The position numbers were made by a program, and so were the translations under genes. A DNA stretch of 64,000 nucleotides, taken from NCBI RefSeq assembly GCF_900182555.1, contig NZ_FXTH01000016.1:1-64000 (forward strand), given 5' to 3'. This document shows positions 9,546 through 58,860 of this stretch, piece by piece. A model generated the notes under the pieces. That model was not told the origin of the DNA. It searched no databases and was given only the letters and a program-made list of their open reading frames with translations. Position 1 is the first letter of the stretch. The number at the start of each line of letters is the position of its first letter. This stretch comes from Fodinibius sediminis (lineage in GTDB: Bacteria > Bacteroidota > Rhodothermia > Balneolales > Balneolaceae).

Positions 9546-9561
9546 TTAAACACATACCATT

Positions 9562-13171: not shown

Positions 13172-13228
13172 CCTGGGTAACAGTTCATTTTTAAACTGGC
13201 TTAAAACATTGTAAAACCATCAAATTAT

Positions 13229-13663: not shown

Positions 13664-13693
13664 AAAAATGCAATTTTTAATCCCGGAGGTTCT

Positions 13694-37826: not shown

Positions 37827-37836
37827 AACATTTATT

Positions 37837-37856
37837 ATTTAAGCAAATTCTTAAAT
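37837..37856 (-). promoter_or_regulatory. mer operator candidate before merA
   Basis: ATTTAAGCAAATTCTTAAAT is an inverted repeat with ATTTAAG/CTTAAAT arms, 11 bp before merA. It agrees at 17 of 20 positions with 38969-38988. Probably the binding site of the ArsR-family mer regulator. Confidence 0.65.
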
Positions 37857-37909
37857 TACTGATAAAATAAAACGCCCGAGAATGGTCAAAGCAGGTAACA
37901 GGGCTACTG

Positions 37910-38913: not shown

Positions 38914-38968
38914 AGTTTTGGCTGTTGGTTGCGTTTCATTATTACAACATAAGTATAATAAATATATT

Positions 38969-38988
38969 ATTTAATTAAATACTTAAAT
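38969..38988 (-). promoter_or_regulatory. mer operator candidate before arsR-merTP
   Basis: ATTTAATTAAATACTTAAAT, with ATTTAA/TTAAAT arms around eight bases, matches the site before merA. It includes a 14-bp perfect palindrome TATTTAATTAAATA at 38968-38981. It lies 56 bp before the arsR start, between that gene and merR. Confidence 0.65.
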
Positions 38989-39015
38989 AAAGATAAAAAA
39001 TATCTCTGATTGCTC

Positions 39016-41079: not shown

Positions 41080-42081
41080 TCAATCTTCCGAATAATACAC
41101 CTCCTGCCAGCTCCAGCCGGTGCTGCGCAGCAAGCCGGCCAGCAGGGCCCGGCGCTTCTTTTCGGGCAGCTGGCCATCCGGGCCCTCTGCCAGCGGAACA
41201 TCGGAGGATTGCAAGTGCTTAAATTCCAGCCCATTTTCGATATCCCCTTCGTGAGCCGCCACAAAATGATGCTTGATGGTGTTCAAAAACTTGCTGATCG
41301 CATCGCGCAGCAGGCGCAGCCCTTGATCCCGGCGGCCGCTTTTGTCCACATGATGCTGTATAATCGTCAGAGCTTCATCCAAATTGGTGAGGTTAATTGA
41401 CAGCGACTCGGAGCGGTTACGGCTGTAGAAATAGTGGACGGCGGGATGCGCAAAATGGTTCTGGTTATGCTTGTTGATCATCTTTTGCAGCTCGGGAGCT
41501 ATCTTTCCCAGTTGCTCAAAGTTTTCGCCATTGAATGCGTTTTTGACGATGGCTTCAGGCGTTTCACCTACGTTCGAAATAAACAAGCTCAGGTTCTTTT
41601 TGTGGATGACGGCTGAGGTGAGGCTTATCAGGTAGGTCATGGCCGTAGTGATAAAAATAAACCCGGCAAAAGAAAACGCCGCTACCACCATTTGCCAGAT
41701 ACCGCCGCCCGGAATGTATTCGCCGTTGCCCATCGTAGAAAGCGTATATCCGCTAAAGTAGATCCTGGCGGCAATGCCCGGTGTGGCACCGCTCTCGGCG
41801 TGGATGACGGAATGGGGATCCCCCATCAACACCAGAAAAAAGCCCAGCCAAAGCAGCGCCAGCCAGAGGGTCACCAGGACAAGGATGTGGGTCATCCCGG
41901 AGAACTGCAGCAGCCACCGGCTGCGGGTCTTGCGGTTTGCCCACAGAAATACACCGGCAATGCCCGATGATACGTGCCGCGCTATCATTCCTGCCCCGTT
42001 AAAGGAGACCGTGGTATAGAAAAAATCGAAGGCGGTGATAACCGTTATCAGAATTCCGAGAATGAGGTAAAGTTCATTCAT
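41080..42081 (-). CDS. ion-channel-like membrane protein
   Basis: 333 residues. Several helices in the first 160 residues, among them ILITVITAFDFFYTTVSF, VLVTLWLALLWLGFFLVLMG and a pore-loop region YTLSTMGNGEYIPGG placed like the selectivity filter of two-helix potassium channels, then AAFSFAGFIFITTAMTYLIS. The filter reads STMGNGEY where potassium channels have TVGYGD, so selectivity is uncertain. The cytoplasmic C-terminal half is helical and unrecognised. It is convergent with nothing and ends 99 bp before the DUF2231 gene. Confidence 0.7.
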   Translation of the reverse strand: MNELYLILGILITVITAFDFFYTTVSFNGAGMIARHVSSGIAGVFLWANRKTRSRWLLQFSGMTHILVLVTLWLALLWLGFFLVLMGDPHSVIHAESGATPGIAARIYFSGYTLSTMGNGEYIPGGGIWQMVVAAFSFAGFIFITTAMTYLISLTSAVIHKKNLSLFISNVGETPEAIVKNAFNGENFEQLGKIAPELQKMINKHNQNHFAHPAVHYFYSRNRSESLSINLTNLDEALTIIQHHVDKSGRRDQGLRLLRDAISKFLNTIKHHFVAAHEGDIENGLEFKHLQSSDVPLAEGPDGQLPEKKRRALLAGLLRSTGWSWQEVYYSED

Positions 42082-42902: not shown

Positions 42903-44261
42903 TCACACCAAAAACCACTGCAAACCCAGCCCCACGCCGATGGTTAAAATAAAGGTCGTAATCCACACAAAGCGGATGCCCGGTTTGACGGCTGCAGGCG
43001 CTTCTTCAGGCTCACTGAAGAACATCGGGATGATGATGCGCAGGTACACGGCCAGGGAAATCACGCTGTTGATGATGGCCGCCACCGCCAGCCAGGTGTA
43101 GCCACTGCCGATGGCCGTGCCGAACAGCAAAAACTTGCCGGCAAAGCCCGCCAGCGGCGGCACGCCCACCAGCGAAAGCAAAAAGATGGTCATGCCCACC
43201 GCCATGGCCGGATGTCGTTTTCCCAGCCCGTTGAAATCACGCAACCGGGGGCCACAGGACTGCGTCACCACAAAAGCGCCGGTGTTCATCACCGCGTAGG
43301 CGATACCAAAAACGACCAGGGCATTCACGGCCAGCCCGCCCTGCTGAATGCCGACGACCCCAATGATAAAATATCCGGCCTGTGCAACAGTGGAATAGGC
43401 CAGCAGCCGAATCACATTATCCTGCCACAGGGCCACCACGTTACCGAAGGTCATGGAGAGCACCGCCACCGCGGCTACCACAAGGGGCCAGTTAAGCACC
43501 TCGGCCGGCAGCTCTCGCGCCACCTGCGCCAACCCGAAGACCGCGCCCACCTTGGGCACGACCGAAAGGTAGGCCGCAATGGAGACCGGTGCGCCCTCAA
43601 AAGCGTCGGGCGTCCAGAAGTGAAAGGGGACCAGCGACCCCGCGTAGCCGATGCCGACCAGCAGGGCCCCGAATCCGAAAATAGCGGCGGCAGATCCCAG
43701 GCCGGGATCATGTAAGGCCGACAGATAGGTGGTGCCGGTCGCCCCCACCCAGAAGGTAAGCCCGAACAGCATGACCGCGCTGGTTACCGAACCGTAGATA
43801 TAGTATTTAAAGGCGCCCTCGGTGGCCCGGTCCGTTTTGGCATAAGCGATCAAGGCCGTCCCCGCCAGCGTGCCGATCAAAATACCAAGCACGATAAACA
43901 TAATGTCACCGGCGCCGGCCAGCAGCAGCGCTCCCAGCGTGGAAAAGATCAACAGGCTATAGACCGTGCCCTCACGATAGGTGTCTTTCAGCTCGCTGCG
44001 CGCCATTACGGCGATCAGTAGAATCGTCAGGCAGAGCATGATGACGGCCCACAGGCTCAGATAATCCACCCGAAAGGTGTTGGAAAAGGCCGTGGTGACG
44101 GTCCCCAGCTTGGATACGGCAACCCCGGAAGCCGCTACCATGCCGATGACGAGCGTCCACAGGCTGCCGCGCGCGCTGCCCATCATCTCGGCCACCAGCG
44201 AACCGATGGCCGTAAGCAGTACCACAATTTGAGGCAGTATAAGGAGTAAGTCGTTGGTCAT
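42903..44261 (-). CDS. nuoN: complex-I-like subunit N (NuoN-like)
   Basis: 452 residues, about fourteen helices, an antiporter-like membrane subunit. Conserved segments include MTFGNVVALWQDNVIRLLAYS, where the Lys/Gln residue of the proton path is Gln in part, and YAVMNTGAFVVTQSCG and LVGVPPLAGFAGKFLLFGTA. It closes the operon nuoA-BD-HJKLMN and should translocate protons in the membrane arm. The NADH-oxidising subunits are absent in this window, so its complex is not ordinary complex I. Confidence 0.9.
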   Translation of the reverse strand: MTNDLLLILPQIVVLLTAIGSLVAEMMGSARGSLWTLVIGMVAASGVAVSKLGTVTTAFSNTFRVDYLSLWAVIMLCLTILLIAVMARSELKDTYREGTVYSLLIFSTLGALLLAGAGDIMFIVLGILIGTLAGTALIAYAKTDRATEGAFKYYIYGSVTSAVMLFGLTFWVGATGTTYLSALHDPGLGSAAAIFGFGALLVGIGYAGSLVPFHFWTPDAFEGAPVSIAAYLSVVPKVGAVFGLAQVARELPAEVLNWPLVVAAVAVLSMTFGNVVALWQDNVIRLLAYSTVAQAGYFIIGVVGIQQGGLAVNALVVFGIAYAVMNTGAFVVTQSCGPRLRDFNGLGKRHPAMAVGMTIFLLSLVGVPPLAGFAGKFLLFGTAIGSGYTWLAVAAIINSVISLAVYLRIIIPMFFSEPEEAPAAVKPGIRFVWITTFILTIGVGLGLQWFLV

Positions 44262-44264: not shown

Positions 44265-45722
44265 CTAAAACCCTAAAAGGTCAGTCGTTGCGTTAATCAT
44301 AGATAACAGCGAATCCGGATATACCCCGATCAAAACGATAGCCGCAAGCAGCGGGATGAACGCCCATAGCTCACGCGGGCCCAAATCGGCTACCTTCTCC
44401 AGTCCACCCGAGGCTTCGCCCATAAACACGCGCTGGATGGCCCGTAAGTAAAAAGCGGTGGTAATCAATAATCCCAGGATGATGAAGCCGGTAGCGACGG
44501 GAGATACCTCGAAGCCGCCCAGAAAGATCTGAAACTCGGCGGGAAAGTGGGCCAGTCCCGGCAGGCCCAGCGAAGCAAAAGCGGCCACGATAAACAGTCC
44601 GCTCAATACCGGGTGCGTTTTCAGCAGCCCGCTCATCTGGTCCATATCGCGGGTGCCAGTGCGATCCTGCAGGGCGCCCACCAGCAAAAAGAGCAGTCCG
44701 GTTACCACGCCGTGACTGATGATCTGCAGCGTGGCGCCGTCCAGCGCCGGGGTTTCGGTGCCCGCCCCCAGGGCCGCCGCGGCCGCCACGCCAAACATCA
44801 TGTAGCCCATATGATTCACGCTGGTGTAAGCCACCAGGCGTTTGATGTCGGTTTGCGCCAGCGCCACCAGTGCACCGTACAGGGCCGTAACTACCGCAAT
44901 GACGATCACATAGGGCGCAAACTGCTGGAAGGCCCCGGGTGTCATCTGAAGCGAAAAACGGATAAAGCCGTAGGCGCCCAGCTTCAGCAATATGCCGGCC
45001 AGGATAGCGCTGCCGGCGGCCGGTGCTTCGGTATGGGCGGCCGGAAGCCAGGTATGCACCGGCACCAACGGTGTCTTGATGGCAAAGGCGATAAACAGTC
45101 CCCAGAACGTGAGCGCGGCCGCCAGTCCGGTCAGCGGCGGGTTGGCGATGAGCGCGCGCATATCGAAGGTGCCGGAAAAGATATAGAGCGACAAAAAGGC
45201 CAGCAGCAGAAACAGGCTGCCGAGCAGCGTATACAAAAAGAACGTCAGTGCGGCCTGCTTGCTGTTTTCATGCCCCCATTCGGCAATAATAAAGTACATG
45301 CCCACCAGCGTGATTTCGAAAAAGACGTAGAACAGGAACAGATCGAGCGACATAAACACGCCCAGGCAAGCCATCTCCAGCATCAGGAATAACATCACGT
45401 AGGTATTGGCTCGTTTTTCGATTTTGGCCGAATAGATGAGCGCCGTCAAAAACAGGAAGGTGGTAAGTATCACAATCGGAAAGCTGATTCCGTCCACCCC
45501 CAGCCGGTAGGCAATGCCGAGCGATGGAATCCAGCTCAGCTGCTCTACCTGGCTGAACCCCGCATCGATACCGCGCAGCCAAATTAAAACAGAGCTAATA
45601 AAGGCGAGTGCTGAGGTGCCAATACCGATGCCGTAGGTAGTTTTCAGGTTTTTCGGCTTCAGCACCAGTATCACCAGTGCTCCCAACAGCGGTAAAAATG
45701 TCGTAATTGATAATAGTGGCAT
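44265..45722 (-). CDS. nuoM: complex-I-like subunit M (NuoM-like)
   Basis: 485 residues, about fourteen helices. Signature antiporter-like parts: FFEITLVGMYFIIAEWG with the key Glu, FAIKTPLVPVHTWLPAAHTE, AGILLKLGAYGFIRF with the central Lys, TDIKRLVAYTSVNHMGYMM and HGVVTGLLFLLVGAL. The charged residues needed for proton transfer are therefore present. It is 3 bp from nuoN and 36 bp from nuoL, in a single operon. Confidence 0.93.
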   Translation of the reverse strand: MPLLSITTFLPLLGALVILVLKPKNLKTTYGIGIGTSALAFISSVLIWLRGIDAGFSQVEQLSWIPSLGIAYRLGVDGISFPIVILTTFLFLTALIYSAKIEKRANTYVMLFLMLEMACLGVFMSLDLFLFYVFFEITLVGMYFIIAEWGHENSKQAALTFFLYTLLGSLFLLLAFLSLYIFSGTFDMRALIANPPLTGLAAALTFWGLFIAFAIKTPLVPVHTWLPAAHTEAPAAGSAILAGILLKLGAYGFIRFSLQMTPGAFQQFAPYVIVIAVVTALYGALVALAQTDIKRLVAYTSVNHMGYMMFGVAAAAALGAGTETPALDGATLQIISHGVVTGLLFLLVGALQDRTGTRDMDQMSGLLKTHPVLSGLFIVAAFASLGLPGLAHFPAEFQIFLGGFEVSPVATGFIILGLLITTAFYLRAIQRVFMGEASGGLEKVADLGPRELWAFIPLLAAIVLIGVYPDSLLSMINATTDLLGF

Positions 45723-45758: not shown

Positions 45759-47642
45759 TTACATTAGGATTAAAAACATCAACGCGACAAAGACCACCAG
45801 TCCCCAGACCGACCACAGCAGCTCGCGGTGCACCAGTCCTGATTGGATCCGACGCCCGTAGCGGCCCAGCGCCTGCACCTTTGCGACCAAAAAGGCAATC
45901 AGTCTGTCAATACCGCGCTCGTCGGAGCGCCGGGACCAGTTGCCCAGCCGTAGCCCAAACTTTCCGAATCCAAACACGCCCCGGTGAAGCAGCCCATCGG
46001 AGACTCCCGCCGCTTCTGACAGCTTCAGGGCCGAGCGTCCGGCCTGCAAAACAACCCGGTGAATGCTCTCATCAATCCGCCTGCAACGCCGGGCCAGTTG
46101 CATCACGGGACGGTTCACCAAGACGTGGTATCCTCCGGCCAACGGATAGTTGTTTCGGATAAACTTCACAGCGGAGTGGTGGTACGTTTTTCCCGCCATC
46201 AGCCAGCCGGCGACAAGGCCGGCCAGCGCCGCCAGCAATCCGCCGATTTGGGCTGCTTGGGCTTTGGGAAGGGTAAAACCTGCCATCTCCATCATATTGT
46301 GCAGCAAAAAGCCGCCGCCTATGACAAAAACCAGCATGGCAAGTAAGCCGCCTTGCATCCATCGAAGGCCCCGGGAATTTTGAATTTCTCCGGCTTCGCC
46401 CTTCCATAAAATGCCCAGCGCGCGGCTCATATACATGGCCGTCAACAGCGCGCCTCCCAAGGCCGCGAGGAAATACCACTCCGGCAGCGATGATTGCAGC
46501 CCCGCCGCAAGCACGCCGTCTTTGGAAAAATAGCCGACAAAGGGGGGAATACCGGCCAGCGCCACGGCAGCCACCCCGAAGCCGGTAAAGGTGACTTTTA
46601 ACTTTTTGCCCGCGCCAGTTAATTGTTCAAACTGGGTGGAGCCCGCCCCGTGCTGCCAGATGCCCGCTCCCAAAAAGAGACTGCTTTTCATGAACGCGTG
46701 CGCCACCAGGTGGGCCAGCGCTGCGCCCGGCGACCCGGCCCCGATAGCCAGCACCATAAAGCCCAGCTGACTGGAGGAGGAGGCGGCGAGCATTTCTTTG
46801 ATATCATCGGAAAAAATAGCGGTCAATCCGGTCATTAATATTGTGATCCCGCCCACCGCACCGATCCAGACCAGCATCCCGGGCGAAAACAGGGGAAAAG
46901 CCTTGATCAGCAGCACGATCCCGGCCGCCACCATGGTAGCGGAGTGCAGCAGCGCCGAGACGGGCGTAGGGCCTTTCATCGCGGCCGCCAGCCAGCTTTG
47001 GAAGGGCACCTGGGCCGACTTGCCCGCCGCGGCCAACAGCAGCGCGAGCGCGCCCACTTGCGAGAGGCTTGCCTGCGGGACTTCGGCAATTTTGCTGGAG
47101 CCGCTGCCGAGGATAATCACAAAGACCCCGATATATAATCCTAAATCCGCAAAACGGTTGATCAAAAAAACCTTGTTGGCGGCCCGGCCAGTTTCGGCAT
47201 TCCAGTGCTTGGTGCTGATAAGCAGGTACGAACAAAAACCCAGCACCTCCCAGGCAATGACAAAAAGAATCCAGTCGCCTGCAAACAGCAGCAGTTGCAT
47301 AGCCCCTAAAAAGAGCGAGATGCTACTCCAGAAGCGCCATTTCCCTTTCTGCTCCCCCATATAACCGATGGCGTAAAGAAAAATGAGCGTCGCTACGAGC
47401 CCCACCACCAGCGAGAGGAGCCCGTTCAGGTAGCTTACTTCCAGCCGGAAGGGCAGCCCGGGGAATCCGGCAAAGCTCCAGGAAGCGGCAAAGCCGCCGG
47501 CGACGCTCCAAAAGAGGGCGGCAGATGCACCCGTGGAAATCGCTGCCCCGGCCAGTGATACGTAGCCCTCTTTTTTGCCACCAAACAGCGTCCACAGACT
47601 TGCTGCGGCGGGGGCGAGGAATATGAGTAATAAATAAATCAT
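45759..47642 (-). CDS. nuoL: complex-I-like subunit L (NuoL-like)
   Basis: 627 residues, in the usual range (about 610). Membrane helices carry YLLISTKHWNAETGRAANKV, VPFQSWLAAAMKGPTPVSAL, LHSATMVAAGIVLLIKAFPL with the proton-path Lys, DDIKEMLAASSSSQLGFMVL and HAFMKSSLFLGAGIW. The C-terminal part carries the long lateral-helix region and a final helix (LLWSVWGLVVFVALMFLILM). This is the distal proton pump of the membrane arm. The gap to nuoK holds a repeat element. Confidence 0.93.
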   Translation of the reverse strand: MIYLLLIFLAPAAASLWTLFGGKKEGYVSLAGAAISTGASAALFWSVAGGFAASWSFAGFPGLPFRLEVSYLNGLLSLVVGLVATLIFLYAIGYMGEQKGKWRFWSSISLFLGAMQLLLFAGDWILFVIAWEVLGFCSYLLISTKHWNAETGRAANKVFLINRFADLGLYIGVFVIILGSGSSKIAEVPQASLSQVGALALLLAAAGKSAQVPFQSWLAAAMKGPTPVSALLHSATMVAAGIVLLIKAFPLFSPGMLVWIGAVGGITILMTGLTAIFSDDIKEMLAASSSSQLGFMVLAIGAGSPGAALAHLVAHAFMKSSLFLGAGIWQHGAGSTQFEQLTGAGKKLKVTFTGFGVAAVALAGIPPFVGYFSKDGVLAAGLQSSLPEWYFLAALGGALLTAMYMSRALGILWKGEAGEIQNSRGLRWMQGGLLAMLVFVIGGGFLLHNMMEMAGFTLPKAQAAQIGGLLAALAGLVAGWLMAGKTYHHSAVKFIRNNYPLAGGYHVLVNRPVMQLARRCRRIDESIHRVVLQAGRSALKLSEAAGVSDGLLHRGVFGFGKFGLRLGNWSRRSDERGIDRLIAFLVAKVQALGRYGRRIQSGLVHRELLWSVWGLVVFVALMFLILM

Positions 47643-47756: not shown

Positions 47757-48062
47757 TCATCCTTTCATATCAGCCGATTCTTCGGATTCGATGGAGCCTT
47801 TGGTCCGAAAGCGCTGCGTGCCGATAGCAAAGCCGACAGCCGCCTCCAGGGCCATCACCGTCATTACCACCAGCACAAACATCTGGATGGAATAGGACTC
47901 CGGGTGCAAGTAGCGCCAGAAAGCGACCAAGTTCACCATGACGGCGCCCAGCATCAGCTCTACGCCCATCATGATCATCACCAGGTTGGTCTGGCTCAGC
48001 GCCCCGTACAGGCCAATGCCGAAGAGGATGGTTCCGATAATAAGGGCGACCGTTAAAACCAT
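47757..48062 (-). CDS. nuoK: complex-I-like subunit K (NuoK-like)
   Basis: 101 residues, three helices, the typical NuoK size. The two membrane glutamates of the proton path are present in NLVMIMMGVELMLGAVMVN and TVMALEAAVGFAIG. The C-terminus has an acidic tail. It lies 1 bp after nuoJ. Keeping both glutamates argues that the membrane arm still moves protons. Confidence 0.92.
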   Translation of the reverse strand: MVLTVALIIGTILFGIGLYGALSQTNLVMIMMGVELMLGAVMVNLVAFWRYLHPESYSIQMFVLVVMTVMALEAAVGFAIGTQRFRTKGSIESEESADMKG

Positions 48063-48063: not shown

Positions 48064-48588
48064 TCAGTGCTCCTTTTGATTGTTGTTGTGAATAATCAAC
48101 GCCGTGGCCAGGGCGGCGACCATGGCGGTCAGGATTGACGTGCCGGCCGATTCAAAGATCATCATCGAGCGTTGCATCACTTCCATGCCCAAATCGTGGT
48201 TTTGCTGCGCCGGAGCGGGTGCCGCCGGAACGATATCGCCCCAATTTGTGAGCAGAATCACCCCCAGCGCCAGTCCGCCCGTCACGACCGCTGCCACGAT
48301 GGACGGTTTTTCCTGGTGGGTCATGTCCATCTGGCCCAGCCCGCCGGGATCCATCATATACATCATCATAAATATGGCCATGATGCTCATCTCTGTACCC
48401 ATCATCATAATCTGCAGCACGCCCAGGAATTCCGCCTCCATCACCAGAAACATCCCGCCGATCGCCACCATCGAGGCCAGCAGGGAAAAGGCCGAGCGCA
48501 CCATCGAGTTGGTGCGGAACACCCGCCAACCGAACCAGATGGCGATCAGGCCAATGACCATTAATAATGTGATTTGCAGTTCCATCAT
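48064..48588 (-). CDS. nuoJ: complex-I-like subunit J (NuoJ-like), methionine-rich
   Basis: 174 residues, five helices. The general NuoJ plan is kept (LASMVAIGGMFLVMEAEFLG then GVLQIMMMGTEMSIMAIFMM). In ordinary NuoJ the third helix reads like VYAGAIMVLFLFVIML; here the conserved Tyr is missing and the helix and following loop are very rich in methionine (MMMGTEMSIMAIFMMMYMMD, 20 letters, with nine Met). A methionine-lined helix would suit Cu(I) or simply be a hydrophobic replacement. It overlaps nuoH by 4 bp. Confidence 0.85.
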   Translation of the reverse strand: MMELQITLLMVIGLIAIWFGWRVFRTNSMVRSAFSLLASMVAIGGMFLVMEAEFLGVLQIMMMGTEMSIMAIFMMMYMMDPGGLGQMDMTHQEKPSIVAAVVTGGLALGVILLTNWGDIVPAAPAPAQQNHDLGMEVMQRSMMIFESAGTSILTAMVAALATALIIHNNNQKEH

Positions 48589-49487
48589 AGCAGCAATTGA
48601 ATTCCCACTTGCACAATATTAAACAGGGCGGCCGGCACGGCGTACTTCCAACCCCACTCCAGCAGGTGATCGTGGCGGATACGCGGCAACCAGCGGCCCA
48701 CCCAGAAGAAGGAGGCCGCTACCAGCGCTGTTTTAATGAACGTCCACACAAAATCGGGCAGCCAGGGGCCGAGCCATCCGCCCAAAAAGAAGACGGTTAC
48801 GGCCAGCGCGAGCGTCAGAACCAGCAGCAAGCGGCCCAGGCGGAACAAAATTTTACGCGCCCCGGTGAACTCCGCCCAGGCTCCGCCCGCCAGCTCGCCT
48901 TCGGCCACCGGCAGATCAAAGGGCGGCAGAAAGGCCATGGCCATCACCGCGAAGTAGAACAGCAGAAAACCCACCGGCTGGTAGATAATGTTCCAGAGCG
49001 GCGCTTGCGAGCGTACTACTTCCAGCATCCCCATCGACTCGGCCCGCATGACGGCCGCGGTAATGGCCATCACTACCGCCATGGAATAGGCGATGAGCTG
49101 TGCCATGGCGCGCCAGCCGCCAATCATGCCGTAGGCGCCGTTGGCTGACCAGCCCGCCATGATAAGTGAAACCATGATATAGACCAGCGCGGCGTTGATA
49201 AAGAGCGCAGCGGTACCCAGATCAAGCAAAATAGTTCCTTGGGCAAAGGGCAGGATGGCGACCGCCAGCAGCACTACGGCGATGAAAATAATCGGCGTGG
49301 CTTCATAAAAAACGGTGTCGTAGCGGCGGGTACGGATTTCTTCCTGTCCGAAAGCCCGCAAGAATGCATGAAGCGGCCCGGCCCAGTCGAGGCGCCCGCT
49401 AAACGACCAGCGCTCCATCAGGGCCACAAAATAGACTCCTGCTGCAAACAGAATGATAATCGCCGTCCACGTTAATGCTGTACTCAT
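48585..49487 (-). CDS. nuoH: complex-I-like subunit H (NuoH-like)
   Basis: 300 residues, eight helices. Conserved blocks are AGWSANGAYGMIGGWRAMAQ, PPFDLPVAEGELAGGAWAEF and LPRIRHDHLLEWGWK, all NuoH marks. Deviations: the first loop has ERW where NuoH has ERR and GPN, and the helix that normally has SYE has AYS, so the buried Glu there is lost. These residues line the quinone chamber in complex I. Loss suggests that quinone chemistry is changed or absent. It begins directly after the fused subunit's stop. Confidence 0.9.
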   Translation of the reverse strand: MSTALTWTAIIILFAAGVYFVALMERWSFSGRLDWAGPLHAFLRAFGQEEIRTRRYDTVFYEATPIIFIAVVLLAVAILPFAQGTILLDLGTAALFINAALVYIMVSLIMAGWSANGAYGMIGGWRAMAQLIAYSMAVVMAITAAVMRAESMGMLEVVRSQAPLWNIIYQPVGFLLFYFAVMAMAFLPPFDLPVAEGELAGGAWAEFTGARKILFRLGRLLLVLTLALAVTVFFLGGWLGPWLPDFVWTFIKTALVAASFFWVGRWLPRIRHDHLLEWGWKYAVPAALFNIVQVGIQLLL

Positions 49488-51476
49488 CTATTTCACCTCC
49501 GGACTTTTGAGTCCGACTTCCCACGGGGAAATATCCAGCGAGACAATCTGCACCAGCGCGTCCGACAGCTCCGCTTCTTCGCTGAGCGTCGGCACCAGGG
49601 CGGCCAGCGCTTGGGCGGGCGTTTCCAATTGCAGCTGCTTTACCACTCCTTTTTTTACTGAGATCGCAAGGGACAGGGTACCCCGCGGACTTTCAAGCTG
49701 CGCCGAGCCTGAACCGGAGCCGGACAAATCAACCGTATTCCTTTCTTGTTGTTGGTCGGCCTTGTTAATCAACGCAAAGCTTTGCTCAATCTCATCCAGG
49801 CGCACCAGCAGCCGTCCCCAGCCGTTGTTCTCCTCTTTGATGACCGGCTCCCAGCCCAAATCCCGGTACTGCTTTTGCTGCGAGCGCAGATCCTGTTTGA
49901 TTCCCGCGGCTTTGGCCACCGGTCCCGACAGGTGATGCAGCAGGGGGTCGGGAATGATTCCTCCGACGCTTAATTTCGTTTGCAAATATAGCATGGACCG
50001 GATCTGATTTAGAAAAGCGATCAGTTTTTTAGATGATATATCTTTGGTGCGGTGAAGCACATGCCCCCGCGCGGCCTGTCGGTGCATCCATTCGTTGCCT
50101 ACTGTTTTGGCAAAGGTGGCCAGCCAGTTCAGATGGCTGGCAATGCGTTCGTTTTCCAGAGCACAAAGTTCATTAGATAAAATCGAATCATCATTGCCAA
50201 AAGCGTTTGTCAGGGCTTTTTTTGCCAGCAGCCGGTACGTTTGGGGCGTCAACGGGTTGAGCCCCGCCAGCAGATCGGGCAGTTCGGTTGCCTCAAGCGG
50301 CAAGAGCTCTTCAAAAGAACGGGCGGTGAGATCATCTTCCACCCGGGCTTCGATGACGGTATCACCGTCCAGTTCCATGAATACTGACAACCCGCCGGGC
50401 AGGCCGGGGTGAAAGGGCCCGAAGTAGACCTCACTACGGTTCATCGGCAGCCCGTCCCTCGGTCGCGGAAGGTCTTTGGTCATCGCCACCATCGACATAA
50501 AGTCCATATCACCGTGGTCGTGTCCGCCGTGGCCGTGGCCTGCGTGGTTATGTTCATGCTCATCCTGCCCATGTGCGTGTTCTCCATGATCGTGATGTTG
50601 ATGGCCCTTATGTGCACTATGGGAACCGTGCTGATGGCTTTCGTGGCTGTGCTTGTCCGGTGTTCCATGGCAGTCTTTACTGTCCCCGGCTTCGGTATCA
50701 TCAGAATGGTTATGATCGTGATTTTTATGGCTTCCGTGGCTATGGTTGTGTCCTCCATCGGCTTTACCCTGCTGATGGGTGGAATGGTCGTGGCCTTCAT
50801 GATCGCCGTGGCCGTGATGATGGTCGTGTCCGCCGTGATTGTGATTATGACCCTTTTCGTTCTCATGATCACCGTGATCGTGATTATTATGACCGCCATG
50901 TCCGTCATGTGATTCGTGCGATCCATGATCTTCTTCGTGTCCATGCTCATGCTCTTTATGATCGTGCTCACCTTCATCCCCGTTTCCGTGATTATGGTGA
51001 TGATGTGCATGTCCGCCGTTTTCCGAATCTTCAGCCATATTCACCAGAAACTCCGGCGTCCAGGGCTCGGCGTCTTCACTCCAGGCGTGATGTTGAAACA
51101 GTTCCTGAATTTCGGGGAGTGCATCCTCAAGGAAATTATTAGCTAATGCAACATGAAGATCGGGCTTGGGAAGATAAGGGAGCGACTCCGGGCCGGCCAC
51201 CACCAGTACGCGGGGACGCGGAATCTGCTGGTAGGCCACGGCTGCTTTTTGCGCCAGCGGGTCGGGCAGGTTCCCCATTACCAGCAGCACGTTAGCTTCG
51301 CGCGGGTTGGGAGCGATGATGAAGTCTGAGTCCAATTCATTTTGATACATCCTTAAAATATCCGCACCCGGCACCGGAAAAATACAGATATCCTTGGCTG
51401 AGGCCTTGGCCATCCAGCGCCTCAGCCCGCTCATCTTGCCCTTGCGGGCCCCGTATGTCATTACCGGTTTGCTCAT
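49488..51476 (-). CDS. NuoB-like/NuoD-like fusion with long histidine-rich insert
   Basis: 662 residues. Residues 25-130 resemble NuoB (PNPREANVLLVMGNLPDPLA, YQQIPRPRVLVVAG) but lack the four cysteines that hold cluster N2. Residues about 156-322 are a His/Gly/Asp/Glu-rich run with nearly 60 histidines, of the kind found in zinc, nickel and copper carriers. Residues 343-662 resemble NuoD (SEVYFGPFHP, ELDGDTVIEARVEDDL, SGPVAKAAGIKQDLR, GRLLVRLDEIEQS) but the second quinone-site His of HPSxHG is missing (HPGLPGG). NuoC is absent. It would cap the membrane arm in place of the iron-sulfur arm; a metal-responsive or metal-loading role is inferred. Confidence 0.85.
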   Translation of the reverse strand: MSKPVMTYGARKGKMSGLRRWMAKASAKDICIFPVPGADILRMYQNELDSDFIIAPNPREANVLLVMGNLPDPLAQKAAVAYQQIPRPRVLVVAGPESLPYLPKPDLHVALANNFLEDALPEIQELFQHHAWSEDAEPWTPEFLVNMAEDSENGGHAHHHHNHGNGDEGEHDHKEHEHGHEEDHGSHESHDGHGGHNNHDHGDHENEKGHNHNHGGHDHHHGHGDHEGHDHSTHQQGKADGGHNHSHGSHKNHDHNHSDDTEAGDSKDCHGTPDKHSHESHQHGSHSAHKGHQHHDHGEHAHGQDEHEHNHAGHGHGGHDHGDMDFMSMVAMTKDLPRPRDGLPMNRSEVYFGPFHPGLPGGLSVFMELDGDTVIEARVEDDLTARSFEELLPLEATELPDLLAGLNPLTPQTYRLLAKKALTNAFGNDDSILSNELCALENERIASHLNWLATFAKTVGNEWMHRQAARGHVLHRTKDISSKKLIAFLNQIRSMLYLQTKLSVGGIIPDPLLHHLSGPVAKAAGIKQDLRSQQKQYRDLGWEPVIKEENNGWGRLLVRLDEIEQSFALINKADQQQERNTVDLSGSGSGSAQLESPRGTLSLAISVKKGVVKQLQLETPAQALAALVPTLSEEAELSDALVQIVSLDISPWEVGLKSPEVK

Positions 51477-51479: not shown

Positions 51480-51842
51480 CTATTGTCGTTTAAGTCCGCT
51501 TTGCGTCCAGGTGTAAATGAGTCCCAAAAACAGGATGCCCAGGAAAAAACCCATATCCAGTAGGGCGACAAGTCCCAGTTCCTTGTACACTACCGCCCAG
51601 GGATACATATAGGCCATCTCCATATCAAAGGCCAGAAAGAGCAGTGCAAAACCGTAGTAGTGTACGTGGTAGCGATTCCAGGCCGGCTCGGGCGACGGAT
51701 GGCCGCTCTGGGCCGGCATATCCTTGCCGGGCTCATCCACCGTCTCACCCAGCGAACGCTTGATGAGATAAATCATCCACGCCAGCCCCGCCGTGGCCAC
51801 CAGCATGCCGAACAGGATGATGTATTGCTGCAGTGGTTGCAT
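51480..51842 (-). CDS. nuoA: complex-I-like subunit A (NuoA-like)
   Basis: 120 residues, three helices, the normal NuoA length. The conserved acidic helix is present in HYYGFALLFLAFDMEMAYMY with FDMEMAYMYPWAVVYK, as in NuoA's FDIEVVFLYPWA. The loop has an inserted polar stretch (VDEPGKDMPAQSGHPSPEP). It is the first nuo-like gene, 121 bp after the multicopper oxidase stop, so both may share a transcript. Confidence 0.9.
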   Translation of the reverse strand: MQPLQQYIILFGMLVATAGLAWMIYLIKRSLGETVDEPGKDMPAQSGHPSPEPAWNRYHVHYYGFALLFLAFDMEMAYMYPWAVVYKELGLVALLDMGFFLGILFLGLIYTWTQSGLKRQ

Positions 51843-51963: not shown

Positions 51964-53538
51964 TTAGGTAATTTCAAAATTCGCCATCATGCCGTTGTCT
52001 TCATGCTCCAGGTTGTGGCAGTGAAATACGTACAGGCCTTTGGGGGCATCAAATTTGGTAAGCACGCGCACGGTTTCGCCGGCGCCGACCAGCACGGTAT
52101 CTTTCCAGCCGCGCTCGTGCGGGGATAGCTCTCCGCCGCTGCGCTCCAGCACGTTAAATTGCGTAGCATGAATATGCATCGGGTGCGGCATCGGCATCAT
52201 CGTATTATTGGTGAATTCCCATACTTCAAGTGCACCTTGGGGCACTTTCTGGTCCACGCGCATCATCTCAAAAAACTTTCCGTTGATGGCCGGCCCCTGC
52301 ATCATCTCCATCGTCAGGTTGATACGCCGGCTCCGGTCGGCAGCTGATGCGTCAGGATAGGATCGTTTTGCCAACCTTCCGGGGAGTTCAAACTCCTCCT
52401 GCTTTTCTTTTGCGATTCTGAACTCAAGGATATCTGCCTCTCCACCAGATGTGCTGCCTCGACGGTCCCGATCGCCCATCATTCCCTGCATGCCCCTGCG
52501 GCTTTGCCGGCCATTCATCATCCCGCCATTTCTGTTTCCATCCATCATATCCATCATTCCGCCATTTCTGTTTCCATCCATCATATCCATCATTCCGCCA
52601 CCCCCGTTCTGCGCTTCGGCCTGCATACGCACTTTTTGACCCTTCTCATAACGACTGAAATCGACGAGCAGGTCGGCCCGTTCGCCGGGAGCTAACATAA
52701 CAGAGGATATCTCATGCGGTTGCTCCAGCAGCCCGCCGTCACCACCAATCACATGAAAAGCGTGTCCATCGCTGAACGAGAAATCCAGAATACGGGCGTT
52801 GGACCCGTTGAGCAGCCGCAGCCGGTGCCAGTTTGTGCTTACCTTATGATACGGAGCGGGGCGGCCATTCACCAGCAGCGTATTGCCAAAGAAACCCATC
52901 ATGCGATCCATCCTGCCGATATTATAGGTTAACTGCCCGCTGCTGTTAAACTGCTTATCCTGCACGATCAGCGGCAGCTCGCGGTCCCCGGAGGGCAAGC
53001 CCAACGCCTGCTCCTCGTCGTCTTCCACGATAAAAAAGCCACCCAGTCCCCGATATACCTGCGGACCGGTCAGCTGATCAGGATGCGGGTGATACCAGTA
53101 GGTCCCGGCCCGCTGATCGACGTTGAACCGGTAGTTATAGTTTTGGCCGGGCTGGACTGCATCTTTGGGGTGCCCGTCCATGGCGGGCGGCACGATGAGC
53201 CCGTGCCAGTGAAGGATGCTTTCCTGGGTAATACGATTTTGAAAATTGATATTCAGCGACTGGCCCCGCTTAATGCGTATCGTCGGACTCGGCAGGGCGC
53301 CGTTCAAGGTATAAATATCCGAAGGCGCATCACCGGCCAGCGTTTTTTGAGTGGATTCGGCCACCAGCTCGAAGTCGTTGGCTCGGATCTCTTCCGGAAA
53401 TACCAGCGGCTGAGTGAACGCATTTTGAGGCAGCACAAAGCCCTCTTTAGCTTCCGAGCTACACGCCAGAAGCGCCGACGGCAGAGTTGCTACTGCGCTG
53501 CCGAGGCCAAGATATTTCAGGAATTTTTTGCGATCCAT
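51964..53538 (-). CDS. CueO-like multicopper oxidase lipoprotein
   Basis: 524 residues. The signal (KYLGLGSAVATLPSALLACS) ends in a lipobox, so the enzyme is probably membrane-tethered in the periplasm. Copper ligands are in ILHWHGLIVP, GTYWYHPHPDQ, MPHPMHIHATQF and YVFHCHNLEHEDNGMM. A methionine-rich insert (about residues 315-345, GGMMDMMDGNRN repeated) resembles the Cu(I)-binding Met loop of CueO. It oxidises Cu(I) or organic substrates with oxygen. It is flanked by the SHOCT gene and the nuo-like genes, on the same strand. Confidence 0.93.
   Translation of the reverse strand: MDRKKFLKYLGLGSAVATLPSALLACSSEAKEGFVLPQNAFTQPLVFPEEIRANDFELVAESTQKTLAGDAPSDIYTLNGALPSPTIRIKRGQSLNINFQNRITQESILHWHGLIVPPAMDGHPKDAVQPGQNYNYRFNVDQRAGTYWYHPHPDQLTGPQVYRGLGGFFIVEDDEEQALGLPSGDRELPLIVQDKQFNSSGQLTYNIGRMDRMMGFFGNTLLVNGRPAPYHKVSTNWHRLRLLNGSNARILDFSFSDGHAFHVIGGDGGLLEQPHEISSVMLAPGERADLLVDFSRYEKGQKVRMQAEAQNGGGGMMDMMDGNRNGGMMDMMDGNRNGGMMNGRQSRRGMQGMMGDRDRRGSTSGGEADILEFRIAKEKQEEFELPGRLAKRSYPDASAADRSRRINLTMEMMQGPAINGKFFEMMRVDQKVPQGALEVWEFTNNTMMPMPHPMHIHATQFNVLERSGGELSPHERGWKDTVLVGAGETVRVLTKFDAPKGLYVFHCHNLEHEDNGMMANFEIT
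52525..52596. repeat. two perfect 36-bp tandem repeats in the oxidase Met loop
   Basis: Identical 36-bp copies occupy 52525-52560 and 52561-52596, and encode two copies of a GGMMDMMDGNRN block. Partial copies flank them. The copy number of such an in-frame repeat can vary by slippage, changing the number of methionines. Confidence 0.9.
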
Positions 53539-53921: not shown

Positions 53922-54686
53922 TTAAAACCACATGCGAACGCCGCCGAGCAAACTCAGGTTACTCACATGTCCGCCTTCAGCGCGAGCCATATCGGCGGTT
54001 TCGCCCAGCTTGCGTTCCCAGTTGATGCCGATATAGGGAGCAAATTCCCGGACGAACTCGTAACGGAGCCGGAAGCCGAGCCCGATGTCGTTAAATCCGG
54101 ATCCGACGCCCCATTCCGGAACATCCTGCAGGGCCACACTGGTTTCGAAGATCGGCTGACCGATCAGTCGTTGCGTAAATAGTAGGTCATACTCCGCTTC
54201 CAATGAGGCCGAAATATCACCGTCCTCGCTGACAAACATACCGCCATCAACGTGGAAGAAATAGGGGGCCATGCCTTGCAGGCCAATTACCGCAAAACCT
54301 CTGGACTTGTTGCCCCCATCTTCATAGGCCAGGTCGTATCTTATTCCTCCCTGAATGTCAAAATAAGGACCAATGGCCCGACTGTAGAGGCCCTGGAATT
54401 CCATTTCGGCTTCGCTCTCGGTGGTCAGCGCTTCGCCGTGAGATTTAAACCATAATTTGTTCAGATCTTTGCCTACATACCCTTGCACTTCCCACATCAG
54501 GGGATTGACGCCGCTAACGCTGCGGTACTCCAACTTTTCAGCAATCAGATAGACGTAGGTTTTATCGTCCATCATCAAGTCGTTGCTGAACTCAGGTGCT
54601 TTTTGGGCAAAGGCCGAACTGCCGGTGATTATGATGATAGCGAAAATAGTGAGAATGAATGATGAGGTGCGTTTAATCATGGTCAT
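53922..54686 (-). CDS. copB: copper resistance outer-membrane protein CopB
   Basis: 254 residues (Met3 at 54680 may be the true start). A signal peptide ends near SSAFAQ. The rest is a beta-barrel type protein with family segments ISASLEAEYDLLFTQRLI, GSGFNDIGLGFRLRYEF, REFAPYIGINWERKLG and LLGGVRMWF at the end, as in PcoB/CopB. It is an outer-membrane copper-binding protein. The usual Met/His-rich N-terminal part is short here. It is 57 bp after copA. Confidence 0.93.
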   Translation of the reverse strand: MTMIKRTSSFILTIFAIIIITGSSAFAQKAPEFSNDLMMDDKTYVYLIAEKLEYRSVSGVNPLMWEVQGYVGKDLNKLWFKSHGEALTTESEAEMEFQGLYSRAIGPYFDIQGGIRYDLAYEDGGNKSRGFAVIGLQGMAPYFFHVDGGMFVSEDGDISASLEAEYDLLFTQRLIGQPIFETSVALQDVPEWGVGSGFNDIGLGFRLRYEFVREFAPYIGINWERKLGETADMARAEGGHVSNLSLLGGVRMWF

Positions 54687-54743: not shown

Positions 54744-56540
54744 TTACGAATAGTCCTGTCCGTAGATGCTGCCGTCTTCGTCGGCCACCTGGACCACGCG
54801 AAACATGCCGCGTTCCATGTGGTAGAGGATGTGGCAGTGGAAGGCCCAACGCCCTTTGTCACGTGGCGTAATGAGGGCCGAAATCCGCTGCGCAGGTTGT
54901 ACGAGCAGGGTATGCTGGCGGGGATTGTATTGCCCGTTTCCGTTTTCCAGCTCCATCCACATGCCGTGTAGGTGAATCGGGTGTTCCATCATGGTGTCAT
55001 TGACCAGCGTGAGCCGGAGCCGCTCGTTGTGGGTAAATTCAATGGGACCATCCACTTCATGAAACTGCTCGCCGTCGAACGACCACATGTAGCGTTCCAT
55101 ATTGCCGGTTAGGTGTAGTTCTACTTCACGCTGGGCATCGCGGGTGTCTTTGTTGGGACGCAGGCTTTTTAGATCGTTATAGACCAGTACTTTTCGTCCG
55201 TCGTTGCCAAGACCAATACCGGGTTCATCGAGCCGGTCAAACTGGTTTTGGGCAACGGCCGCTGCCCCCGGCCCGTGCTTGTCGGGGCCGTGTTTTACGG
55301 GGGTCTTCTTCATGGCCGGCATTTGCATATCGCTATGATCCATATCTCCGTGGTTCATATCGCCATGGTCCATACCCTCCATGTCGCCCATAGCCATCAT
55401 CATGCCCATGTCTCTCATGCTGCGTTTGGGACGGGGGCGAAGCTCAGGTACCGGCGCTTCCATCCCTTCGCGCGGCGCAAGTGTGCCACGGGCGTAGCCA
55501 CTACGGTCCAGGGATTCGGCAAAAATGGTATAGGGTTTTTCTTCTTTGGGTTCGACAATCACGTCATAAGTCTCAGCAATACCGATACGGAATTCTTCGA
55601 TGGGTACCGCCTCCACATTTTGGCCGTCGGCGGCTACCACCGTCATCTCCAGGCCGGGAATGCGAACATCAAAGGCCGTGGTCCCGGCAGAAGCATTGAT
55701 AAATCGCAGGCGCACTTTTTCACCTTTTTTGAACAAGGCGTTCCAGTTAGAATTGGGACCACGTCCATTCATCAGATACGTATAGGTCGCACTGGTTACA
55801 TCCAGCAGATCCGTGGCGCTCATCCGCATCTTGCCAAAGGAGAGATAATCCTTAACAGCATTACCAAACCCATCTTCTTTGACATCATTGATAAATTCTC
55901 CGAGGTCTCGCTTCTGATAATTATAGTACCCTTCCTGCTTCACGCTGTGTGCCAATACGTCGTGGGGATCTTCAAAGGTCCAGTCGGAGAGTACGATCGG
56001 GTACTCACGGTCGTATTCGACCGGATCTTCATCGGCCGGGTCGATAATCATGGGACCGTAATGGCCGAGCTGTTCCTGCAGGCCCGAGTGGCTGTGATAC
56101 CAGTAGGTACCACTCTGTCGCACTGGATAGCGATATTCAAAGGTTTCACCGGGGGCGATGCCGTCAAAACTAACGCCAGGTACGCCATCCATCTGGAAAG
56201 GCAACAGGATTCCGTGCCAGTGGATAGAAGTCGTATCATCCAGCTTGTTGGTTACTCGAAGCAGTACGTCTTGCCCTTCTTTGAGGCGAATGAGCGGGGC
56301 AGGTACCGTTCCATTAATACCGATGGCTTCTCCTCGCTTTCCATCGATCTGGTGTGCCATTTTGCCGATGGTCAGATCAATAACGTTGTCCGGTCCCTGG
56401 GGAGTGAGTACGTTTTCGTTTGTGGTGTTAAATCCGCCAAGGGCATAACCTGGCAAGATGGAGCTTACTCCTGCAAATGCCGCCATTGAGGCGGTATAAC
56501 GTAGAAAGCGACGGCGTGTCATGTTATTATCTTCACTCAT
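54744..56540 (-). CDS. copA: copper resistance multicopper oxidase CopA
   Basis: 598 residues. A Tat signal with TRRRFLRYTASMAAFAGV sends the folded enzyme to the periplasm. The copper ligands stand in IHWHGILLPF, GTYWYHSHSG, EHPIHLHGMWME and AFHCHILYHMERGMF. A Met/His-rich linker (about residues 375-410, GDMEGMDHGDMNHGDM) binds copper in CopA/PcoA. It oxidises Cu(I) and sequesters copper. The promoter, divergent from the response regulator gene, contains a direct-repeat regulator site. Confidence 0.95.
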   Translation of the reverse strand: MSEDNNMTRRRFLRYTASMAAFAGVSSILPGYALGGFNTTNENVLTPQGPDNVIDLTIGKMAHQIDGKRGEAIGINGTVPAPLIRLKEGQDVLLRVTNKLDDTTSIHWHGILLPFQMDGVPGVSFDGIAPGETFEYRYPVRQSGTYWYHSHSGLQEQLGHYGPMIIDPADEDPVEYDREYPIVLSDWTFEDPHDVLAHSVKQEGYYNYQKRDLGEFINDVKEDGFGNAVKDYLSFGKMRMSATDLLDVTSATYTYLMNGRGPNSNWNALFKKGEKVRLRFINASAGTTAFDVRIPGLEMTVVAADGQNVEAVPIEEFRIGIAETYDVIVEPKEEKPYTIFAESLDRSGYARGTLAPREGMEAPVPELRPRPKRSMRDMGMMMAMGDMEGMDHGDMNHGDMDHSDMQMPAMKKTPVKHGPDKHGPGAAAVAQNQFDRLDEPGIGLGNDGRKVLVYNDLKSLRPNKDTRDAQREVELHLTGNMERYMWSFDGEQFHEVDGPIEFTHNERLRLTLVNDTMMEHPIHLHGMWMELENGNGQYNPRQHTLLVQPAQRISALITPRDKGRWAFHCHILYHMERGMFRVVQVADEDGSIYGQDYS

Positions 56541-56696: not shown

Positions 56697-57419
56697 ATGT
56701 GGATATTATTAGTCGAAGATGAAAAACAGCTTGCCCGTTCCCTCAAGCGTGGACTGGAAGAAGAAGGGCATGTAGTGGAAGTGATGCACGACGGAGAGGA
56801 GGCTGAGCTGCAGGGACTGGTCAATGATTACGACATGGTGATCCTGGACTGGCGGTTGCCCCATCGGGACGGCAAGCAAATTCTGGAGCATTGGCGGGCG
56901 GAAGAGCGGACCTTCCCCGTTCTCATGCTAACGGCCCTGGGGGATTTGGATCACAAAGTGTCAGGCCTTGATGCGGGCGCCGATGATTATATGGGCAAGC
57001 CGTTTTCGTTTGAAGAGCTGCTGGCCCGCGTTCGGGCATTGGGACGACGGTCCTCGGAGATGCAGAACGATGAGGTGGTCTCGGTAGGGCCCATTGAGTT
57101 GGATGCGCGCAAACACTGGGTAAAAGTATGCGGTATTAAGCGTTCGCTCAGGCCCAAAGAATTTATTCTGTTGGAACTGTTGCTTGGAGAGCCGGAAACG
57201 GTGTTTTCAAAGACGCAATTAGCCGAGCGGGTCTGGGGCTCGGCCTACCACGTGAGCGATAACACCATTGAAGCTACAATTTCAACACTGCGCCAGAAGT
57301 TGGCCGAATCGTTTGATGAATGCGGGAAAATATTCTTGGAGGATCATTCTCAGGTGATTGAAACGATTCGGGGTGCAGGGTATCGACTACATAGTGACCT
57401 AATTAACAACAATGAGTAG
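56697..57419 (+). CDS. OmpR-family response regulator (CusR/CopR-like)
   Basis: 240 residues. Receiver domain with the phosphorylated Asp in MVILDWRLPHRDG and the KPFSFEELLARVRAL region, then a winged helix with EFILLELLLGEPETVF and HVSDNTIEATISTLRQKL. It is encoded divergently from copA and overlaps the histidine kinase by 8 bp, so it is the copper or silver response regulator of this locus. Its expected binding sites are the CTTAAA direct repeats at 56618 and 41049. Confidence 0.9.
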   Translation: MWILLVEDEKQLARSLKRGLEEEGHVVEVMHDGEEAELQGLVNDYDMVILDWRLPHRDGKQILEHWRAEERTFPVLMLTALGDLDHKVSGLDAGADDYMGKPFSFEELLARVRALGRRSSEMQNDEVVSVGPIELDARKHWVKVCGIKRSLRPKEFILLELLLGEPETVFSKTQLAERVWGSAYHVSDNTIEATISTLRQKLAESFDECGKIFLEDHSQVIETIRGAGYRLHSDLINNNE

Positions 57420-58860
57420 CATTGTGAGTAGCATAACAAGCTTTTTTGATCGGCTCTCAATCTCTAAAAAACTGGCATTTTGGTATGGGCTAAGTTTGTT
57501 CGTGATGCTCAGCCTGTTCGGTTACTTTTTATACGAGTCGTACCATCAGTCGATCCATCATAACTATGATCGCCACCTTCGGTTCGAGGCCGAACAACTG
57601 CTCCCGCATATCAACACCTCCGGGGATACGCTGGCTATTGACTTGTCGGGATATAGTCGCAATGCGGCACTTAAAAGTGGCGTCGAATACGGAACCTACG
57701 TGCGGCTATACAACCAGAACGGCCAACTCATTTACCGGAGTCCGAACTTTATCGATGTCGATCAGCCACTGGAAACAGAGATCCCCAATGAGACGGAAGA
57801 GTATTCCTTCAGCAGCCAATGGCAGGACCTGCCGGCACGAACACTTTTCTACCCGATCCATGACTCCGGTGGAACGTTTTGCGGCTGGCTGGAAGTGACC
57901 GGATTTGAATGGACGCTGCACGAAGAACTGAATCGGTTCAGAAGGTACCTGTTGGTTCTAATTGCCATAAGTGTGGCATTTTCTATTCTCGGGGGATACT
58001 GGCTTTCCCGAAGAGCACTAACGCCGGTAGCCTCTATCAATGAAGCAGCCAAATCAATCACAGCCACCGATTTAGACAAACGTATTCCGGTAAACTACCA
58101 GGTAAAAGACGAGCTGACCGACTTGGCCGAAACCTTTAATATGATGCTCAATCGCCTGCAAAAAGGCTTTGAACGAGAGAAACGCTTTACCTCCGACGCC
58201 GCCCACGAACTCATGACCCCACTTTCATCGATGCGCAGTGATGCCGAGATTATGCTCCGTAAACCCCGTTCCAAAGAGGAATACCAGGAAACGATAGAGC
58301 GTATGCTGAAAGAGGTTCAAAAGATGAGCGAAATGGTGCATCTGTTGCTGCAGCTTTCACGGGTAGAATCGGTACACCGCTCGAAGCCGGAGAAGGTTTG
58401 TATAAGCCGCATTACAGAAGCAGTGGCCGATCAACACCAGGAAAGTGCTCAGGCAAAGAATATCAGTATTCAAACGCAGATTGATCCTGACCTGCAAGTC
58501 CGGGCGCATGGAGCGTACATTGAAGAGGTAATCAACAATCTGATGGAAAATGCTGTGAAGTACACACCTGAAGGTGGCCAGGTAAAGCTGCAACTACAAC
58601 GCAGCAGCGGCAAGGCAGTTATCCACCTGAATGATACTGGCATCGGTTTTGAGGAGGAGACCAAAAAGCATCTTTTTGAACGGTTTTACCGGGCCAATGA
58701 GTCAGAAGTACAACAGCAGTCCGGAAGTGGCTTAGGGCTGCCACTCGTAAAAGCCATTATCGAATTATATGGTGGAAAGATTCGAGCTTATAGTGAAGGA
58801 GAGGGGAAAGGAAGTACATTCGTGGTTGAGTTGCCGCTGGCAGATGGAAAGGAAATTTAA
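57412..58860 (+). CDS. sensor histidine kinase (CusS/CopS-like)
   Basis: 482 residues. Two helices (LAFWYGLSLFVMLSLFGYFL and YLLVLIAISVAFSILGGYWL) bracket a periplasmic sensor part of about 140 residues with histidines (YHQSIHHNYDRH). A HAMP region, the phospho-accepting His in DAAHELMTPLSSMR, and ATP-binding boxes NLMENAVKYTPEGG, DTGIGFEEE and GSGLGLPLVKAII follow. It presumably senses periplasmic copper or silver and phosphorylates its regulator. The stop overlaps that of a convergent gene by 4 bp. Confidence 0.9.
   Translation: MSSIVSSITSFFDRLSISKKLAFWYGLSLFVMLSLFGYFLYESYHQSIHHNYDRHLRFEAEQLLPHINTSGDTLAIDLSGYSRNAALKSGVEYGTYVRLYNQNGQLIYRSPNFIDVDQPLETEIPNETEEYSFSSQWQDLPARTLFYPIHDSGGTFCGWLEVTGFEWTLHEELNRFRRYLLVLIAISVAFSILGGYWLSRRALTPVASINEAAKSITATDLDKRIPVNYQVKDELTDLAETFNMMLNRLQKGFEREKRFTSDAAHELMTPLSSMRSDAEIMLRKPRSKEEYQETIERMLKEVQKMSEMVHLLLQLSRVESVHRSKPEKVCISRITEAVADQHQESAQAKNISIQTQIDPDLQVRAHGAYIEEVINNLMENAVKYTPEGGQVKLQLQRSSGKAVIHLNDTGIGFEEETKKHLFERFYRANESEVQQQSGSGLGLPLVKAIIELYGGKIRAYSEGEGKGSTFVVELPLADGKEI

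Follow-up and report, generated by a model that had tools for sequence, protein, structure and literature searches.

Among the closest described systems are relatives of respiratory complex I. In the Ehr (hydrogenase-related) complexes, a NuoB/NuoD-like pair devoid of NiFe ligands is associated with membrane subunits of the Ech/Hyf type, and the inorganic-carbon pumps DabAB/MpsAB combine a NuoL-type subunit with a cytoplasmic metal protein and are driven by the proton-motive force. In complex I, the role of the third transmembrane helix of NuoJ (TM3, the pi-bulge helix) in coupling is much debated. To our knowledge, no redox-free complex I has been tied to copper, and we know of no role in metal homeostasis for any member of the complex I superfamily; a search of the open-access literature, with most subscription papers outside its scope, returned no description of a copper-linked complex I. 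A redox-free use of NuoL/M/N/K-type subunits is found in the Mrp cation/proton antiporters (PMC7419157, PMC9568556).

The window that we analysed, a stretch of 64,000 nucleotides from a contig of Fodinibius sediminis, contains an operon of eight genes in the order NuoA-[B/D]-H-J-K-L-M-N, which are currently annotated as NADH dehydrogenase subunits. This operon lacks the genes for NuoC, E, F, G and I, and so do those of the relatives that were read. As far as sequences and structural models can tell, the operon encodes a conserved and mobile derivative of complex I, which has no recognisable redox centres, carries metal modules and methionine clusters, and is linked to copper genes. The feature is the whole eight-gene complex, which is larger than the single gene noticed at first. 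Its parts are the following:

51480-51842, minus strand: NuoA-like (Pfam Oxidored_q4, E 2.4e-25), canonical Cys loop replaced
49488-51476, minus strand: NuoB-like/NuoD-like fusion with a His-rich linker, 662 aa, second gene of the operon, between NuoA and NuoH
51012-51443, minus strand: NuoB-fold domain of the fusion without the N2 cysteines, residues 12-155 (AlphaFold2 and structural match to NuoB)
50502-51011, minus strand: His-rich linker, disordered, residues 156-325 (pLDDT <50)
50442-50501, minus strand: Met motif F-M-S-M-[VIL]-x-M-T...D-G-L-x-M, residues 326-345, continuing into the ex-quinone-site loop
49512-50441, minus strand: NuoD-fold domain with a degenerate quinone-site loop, residues 346-655 (structural match to NuoD)
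48585-49487, minus strand: NuoH-like (Pfam NADHdh, E 1.7e-56; alignments)
48064-48588, minus strand: NuoJ-like, Met-rich (Pfam Oxidored_q3, E 2.1e-19)
48313-48417, minus strand: TM3 and TM3-4 loop of NuoJ, LQIMMMGTEMSIMAIFMMMYMMDPGGLGQMDMTHQ, which contains a new Glu (E66) and a new His (H91) and is proposed to form the Cu(I)/Ag(I) path
47757-48062, minus strand: NuoK-like, mildly Met-rich (Pfam Oxidored_q2, E 8.8e-18), membrane Glu kept (alignment)
45759-47642, minus strand: NuoL-like proton-channel subunit (Pfam, E 1.4e-56), key Glu/Lys/His kept (alignment)
44265-45722, minus strand: NuoM-like proton-channel subunit (TIGR01972, above its cut-off), key Glu/Lys kept (alignment)
42903-44261, minus strand: NuoN-like (Pfam, E 2.1e-50; alignment)

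The original prediction described the fusion as a NuoB-like part without the four N2 cysteines and a NuoD-like part that has lost one quinone-site His, separated by an insert of about 167 residues with almost 60 His. The exact count is 58 His in residues 156-322 (167 aa), out of 68 in the whole protein. The match of the N-terminal part to NuoB is weak in sequence (NCBIfam nuoB_fam, E 0.043); the profile of the fusion family matches the NuoB chains of the PDB with E ~3e-7, and the domain folded alone with AlphaFold2 (pLDDT 92.9) superimposes on NuoB (Z 11.6, rmsd 2.8, 123 aligned). The C-terminal part is recognised by Pfam Complex1_49kDa (E 3.8e-13), and its AlphaFold2 model matches NuoD (Z 34.5, rmsd 2.2, 311 aligned). 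When the entire fusion is modelled from 24 aligned sequences, two confident domains are obtained with a disordered linker between them.

The four N2 cysteines are indeed absent from the fusion, and the 23 aligned relatives have no conserved Cys, most of them having no Cys at all, which rules out that the cysteines are present at shifted positions. The CxxC pairs of a NiFe site were also looked for, and there is no invariant Cys across the 24 fusions. In the NuoD part, the quinone-site loop reads GPFHPGLPG where the canonical loop is GPQHPSTHG, so that one His is gone in the window protein, as predicted; the second quinone-site His is also lost in 17 of 24 relatives. The sequence search rules out that two genes were joined by an assembly or frameshift error, since more than 20 further genomes and plasmids have the same fusion in one open reading frame.

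The linker had also been likened to those of metal carriers. The window fusion has no match to the HMBD profile (Pfam) and carries the His-rich tract in its place; in Chloroflexota, Rubrobacter/Actinomycetota and Alphaproteobacteria, the linkers contain HMBD domains (PF19335, E 8e-27; detected by profile or motif) together with MDHGxM-type repeats. These domains, and the copper genes found around most loci, support a putative metal-binding function of the linker. A reservation concerns the metal, which might be Ag or, for the His linkers, Zn/Cu(II). The proposal that a metal-binding arm has replaced the electron-transfer arm is likewise supported by the loss of the N2 cysteines, the missing NuoC/E/F/G/I and the predicted metal module.

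The position of the module varies. Some Balneolaceae have a second His-rich insert, within the NuoD domain. In Roseivivax and Acuticoccus, the B/D protein is shrunk to ~300 aa and the His-rich domain forms the C-terminus of NuoJ, which in complex I is cytoplasmic; the NuoJ of Halomonas has a short His tail. By homology to complex I, all these modules would be cytoplasmic and located at the heel. A divergent complex from Chloroflexota (L128, G679:C5:90001-110000, positions 9387-17700) has kept the NuoB cysteines and a separate NuoD, and its NuoJ carries five HMBD domains in the TM3-4 loop (E 8.5e-67). It could be an intermediate on the way from complex I to the fusion family.

Disordered His/HMBD modules of variable length (the linkers of Bacteroidota contain from about 10 to 86 His) resemble metal stores, as would suit a complex devoted to the uptake of copper or silver, or to its delivery, to periplasmic oxidases for example, or else a cytoplasmic copper buffer for which complex I serves as the anchoring scaffold, and not an exporter for resistance. 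We give little credence to this idea, since a plain buffer needs no conserved eight-subunit membrane arm with channel residues, and the genomic context is one of resistance genes. This context is also the reason why, for the proton-coupled copper handling that we propose below, export is the preferred direction.

Regarding the membrane arm, NuoH has a deletion of the quinone-entry loop between TMH1 and TMH2 (GPxxVG), and the Glu of TMH4 is replaced by Ser/Ala, while the acidic TMH5-6 loop is retained. It may be asked whether the complex is still a redox enzyme, in which electrons travel via Met/His-bound copper or quinone, for instance in the oxidation of Cu(I) or quinol coupled to proton movement. 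It does descend from a redox complex, and multicopper oxidases and cytochromes are among its neighbours. We nevertheless consider this improbable: there is no conserved Cys and no Fe-S subunit, the NuoH quinone-entry loop is deleted, the quinone-site His is lost, and flexible His linkers are not electron wires. The L, M and N subunits score best as Nuo subunits in profile searches. In NuoN, the alignment shows that the TM5 Glu is lost throughout the family and the TM7 Lys in Bacteroidota; the proton side is partly altered, which is a point against our own best reading.

The change that says most lies in the membrane arm: it is the Met-rich TM3 of NuoJ, which the original prediction had missed. 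Fifteen Met are near-invariant among 28 relatives from four phyla, mostly in or beside TM3, and only one of these 15 columns is always Met in canonical NuoJ (n=31). The TM3 region of the relatives reads QIMMM[AG]TEM[SA]xMA[IV]FMxM[YF]MMDPGG...M[DE]M[ST]HQ. A Tyr that is canonical in 31/31 sequences has become Met, and an Ala canonical in 30/31 has become Glu, both in 28/28 relatives; most of the Met/Glu columns are also found in three divergent plasmid forms, those of Halomonas, Roseivivax and Acuticoccus. The Met fraction of NuoJ is 11.0% in the family versus 3.7% in canonical proteins, and that of NuoK 9.0% versus 4.9%. In NuoA, TM2 is FDMEMAYMYPW, whose three Met are invariant in 23 relatives and are not Met in the canonical NuoA compared. 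The fusion contributes M327, M329, M332 and M345, present in 24/24 relatives. In complex I, the TMH3-4 loop of ND6 (NuoJ) adjoins the ND3 loop region (PMC9977279).

Two trivial origins of these clusters were discarded. The enrichment is local, NuoL/M/N carrying less Met than their canonical counterparts, so that it is not an effect of composition. The first contig scan used FMSM as a pattern, which might have selected for the motif; relatives found by profile read FMSMVEMT, FMSMIEMT and FMSMLEMT, with all three Met kept.

The genes upstream of the operon in the window, and one on its 3' side, are the following:

51964-53538, minus strand: CueO-type multicopper oxidase (profile matches; context)
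53922-54686, minus strand: CopB copper-resistance outer-membrane protein (Pfam CopB, E 1.1e-76; context)
54744-56540, minus strand: CopA-type copper-resistance multicopper oxidase (TIGR01480, 792 bits, above cut-off; context)
56697-58860, plus strand: two-component regulator pair beside the copper genes (read from sequence; similar pairs occur near some relatives)
41080-42081, minus strand: Ion_trans_2 (K+-channel-like) protein, 3' of the operon in Balneolaceae (Pfam, E 2.6e-5; synteny)

Across loci, the neighbours are mostly copper genes (CopA ATPase, CsoR, CopZ, CueR, CopA/CopB oxidase, CusAB). Of 20 loci, 16 have a copper P-type ATPase at a distance of at most 10 kb, versus 0.6 expected; the calculation takes the loci as independent, although many of those from Rubrobacter are closely related. 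The genes for copA, a CsoR/RicR-like repressor, copZ, nuoA and the fusion succeed one another on a single strand in Rubrobacter tropicus. CueR adjoins the operon in Roseivivax and is close upstream in Acuticoccus, and several other loci are flanked by CopA/CopB, CusA, CopD or cupredoxins. The presence of the CopA ATPase for Cu(I) export at most loci counts against the need for another, large complex.

The K+-channel-like protein recurs near the operon (window 41080-42081; L165:6841-7245) and may be an optional functional partner. Other genes were seen in passing. In the window, mercury resistance genes (MerA, MerT-HMA, MerR-type; 36183-39474) adjoin the copper island, and a DUF2231 membrane protein whose long C-terminal part has no Pfam match (39860-40981) is near the operon. 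A heavy-metal P-type ATPase (16121-17788) has its best scores with general heavy-metal and Zn/Cd types, not copper, and a protein read from its sequence at 27104-29047 resembles a fusion between a cytochrome c and an iron permease of the FTR1 type. On the Halomonas plasmid (L162:19244-21516), the ergothioneine genes egtB-egtD are directly 3' of the operon.

The main rival to our proposal is a copper-gated proton/cation antiporter: copper bound at the heel would open NuoL/M/N and thereby regulate pH, K+/Na+ or the membrane potential under metal stress, and no copper would cross the membrane. The intact channel residues of NuoL/M suit it, as do the Ion_trans_2 channel that accompanies the operon in Balneolaceae and precedes it in Acuticoccus, and the example of Mrp, a case in the same superfamily of work done without redox chemistry. 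We find it rather unlikely, albeit worth serious consideration, as Met occurs throughout TM3 of NuoJ, which exceeds what a sensor site on one face would need.

Relatives were sought by profile searches in samples of three phyla, and were accepted as true when the NuoD-like part matched with E <1e-70 and there was a separate match to the NuoB domain; canonical NuoD and hydrogenases have E >1e-42. Where they were inspected, the weaker matches (E >1e-42) were canonical NuoD or hydrogenase-like, save L128 and L099. In the latter (G519:C68), a 439-aa B/D-like protein neighbours a NuoJ whose start (GYRVFRTDSMVRAAF) is family-like, which may point to a further subfamily. The operon architecture is conserved in more than 20 loci, with the gene order kept wherever there is enough flanking sequence. 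Relatives come from Balneolaceae (F. salsisoli, F. roseus), Salegentibacter, Maribacter, Cyclobacteriaceae, Chloroflexota and Rubrobacter-like Actinomycetota. The operon is on 17 plasmids, from Sulfitobacter, Paracoccus, Roseovarius, Thioclava, Nitratireductor, Roseivivax, Acuticoccus, Halomonas, Vreelandella and Rubrobacter, whose hosts include marine Alpha- and Gammaproteobacteria. A vent-plume paper on strains whose plasmids carry the operon does not mention the complex I genes. No match was found in the phage and viral collections searched. Two genomes have two copies each (G448, C82 and C65; G938, C1 and C2), and Rubrobacter tropicus has one copy on a plasmid.

In a tree of NuoM, the members of the family group together, separately from both canonical sets included. 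L128 is its sister, with an unsure place, its long branch meeting the outgroup. The plasmids of Rhodobacterales and Nitratireductor are nested within the Rubrobacter group, which indicates transfer between phyla. The degenerate NuoB/NuoD sequences could evoke an ordinary complex I remnant or an assembly artefact; this is hardly credible for an operon that is conserved in four phyla, has invariant new residues and forms a single tree group with transfer between phyla.

The complex is not an accessory of complex I either, since the genomes of Salegentibacter and Maribacter (the latter record being a metagenome bin) contain the operon and no match to the canonical NuoD family. The genome of F. 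sediminis has a canonical complex I on contig C8, with the NuoB cysteines, C, D, H, I and the rest; in that stretch (L044, G000:C8:13001-33000) the order is A-B-C-D-H-I-J-K-L-M-N, there is no E, F or G, and genes resembling 2-oxoacid:ferredoxin oxidoreductase are upstream. A further NuoJ-K-L-M-N set of the same genome (L045, G000:C2:374001-394000) is not accompanied by A, B, D or H within the stretch that was read.

On balance, we lean towards the view that the product of the operon is a membrane complex derived from complex I, which no longer transfers electrons and serves to handle copper (possibly silver), in a proton-coupled manner and most likely for export. We infer that Cu(I)/Ag(I) is transported by the complex. 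In a possible mechanism, the flexible module (His-rich or HMBD) would gather Cu(I)/Ag(I) at the cytoplasmic face, and the FMSM..M..M motif, which is ahead of the ex-quinone loop, would hand the metal from the module to NuoJ. The metal would then enter the Met-lined TM3 (with E66 and H91) and cross the membrane, and the flow of protons through NuoL/M(/N) would power this step or be coupled to it. The net result would be a metal extruder driven by the proton-motive force in place of a proton pump driven by quinone. A point against this transport reading is that a helix rich in Met can bind Cu(I) and yet not conduct it. The stronger version, in which a metal pump of a new class has replaced quinone reduction by the passage of Cu(I)/Ag(I) along the Met-lined NuoJ helix, is powered by the proton-motive force through NuoL/M, and has spread between phyla on copper-resistance plasmids, is one that we consider a real possibility, stopping just short of endorsing it.

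If our reading is correct, a complex of the respiratory chain has been converted to metal homeostasis, and plasmids, some of them typed as conjugative, carry a new kind of copper/silver resistance determinant. It would also bear on the coupling between the heel and the pumps of complex I, the redox trigger having been removed here and TM3 of NuoJ being the centre of the change.

Last, we compare the operon with known systems. With respiratory complex I (NDH-1, NuoA-N) it shares A, H, J, K, L, M and N in the usual order, the NuoB and NuoD folds, and the channel residues, which are kept in L and M and partly lost in N. On the contrary, the N2 tetracysteine motif, NuoC/E/F/G/I, the NuoH quinone loop (GPxxVG) and the quinone-site His of NuoD (GPQHPSTHG) are absent, and metal modules and a Met-rich NuoJ are added. 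Regarding the group 4 membrane-bound hydrogenases (MBS and FHL included), the NuoD-like part finds its best PDB sequence match in the 6CFW alpha subunit (E 1.5e-24), but the fusion has no conserved cysteines, hence neither a NiFe site nor the Fe-S cluster of the small subunit. Unlike Mrp (MrpA-G, which has no NuoH, B or D), the operon has subunits of the NuoA, H, J and B/D types, plus the Met/His metal features. It also differs from DabAB/MpsAB in having eight subunits, a copper rather than carbonate context and, among its proteins, no match to the partner DUF2309 (Pfam).

The operon is predicted to be new in function and set apart from complex I, the group 4 hydrogenases, Mrp and DabAB/MpsAB, while it is still a relative of complex I by descent. 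Its parts are individually known: the His-rich loops of CDF/ZIP transporters, the HMBD of CusB/CopA-type proteins and the Met pathways of CTR1 and CusA are elements of the same kinds. Here they are placed on the scaffold of complex I, the HMBD likeness being the one that is a true family match.
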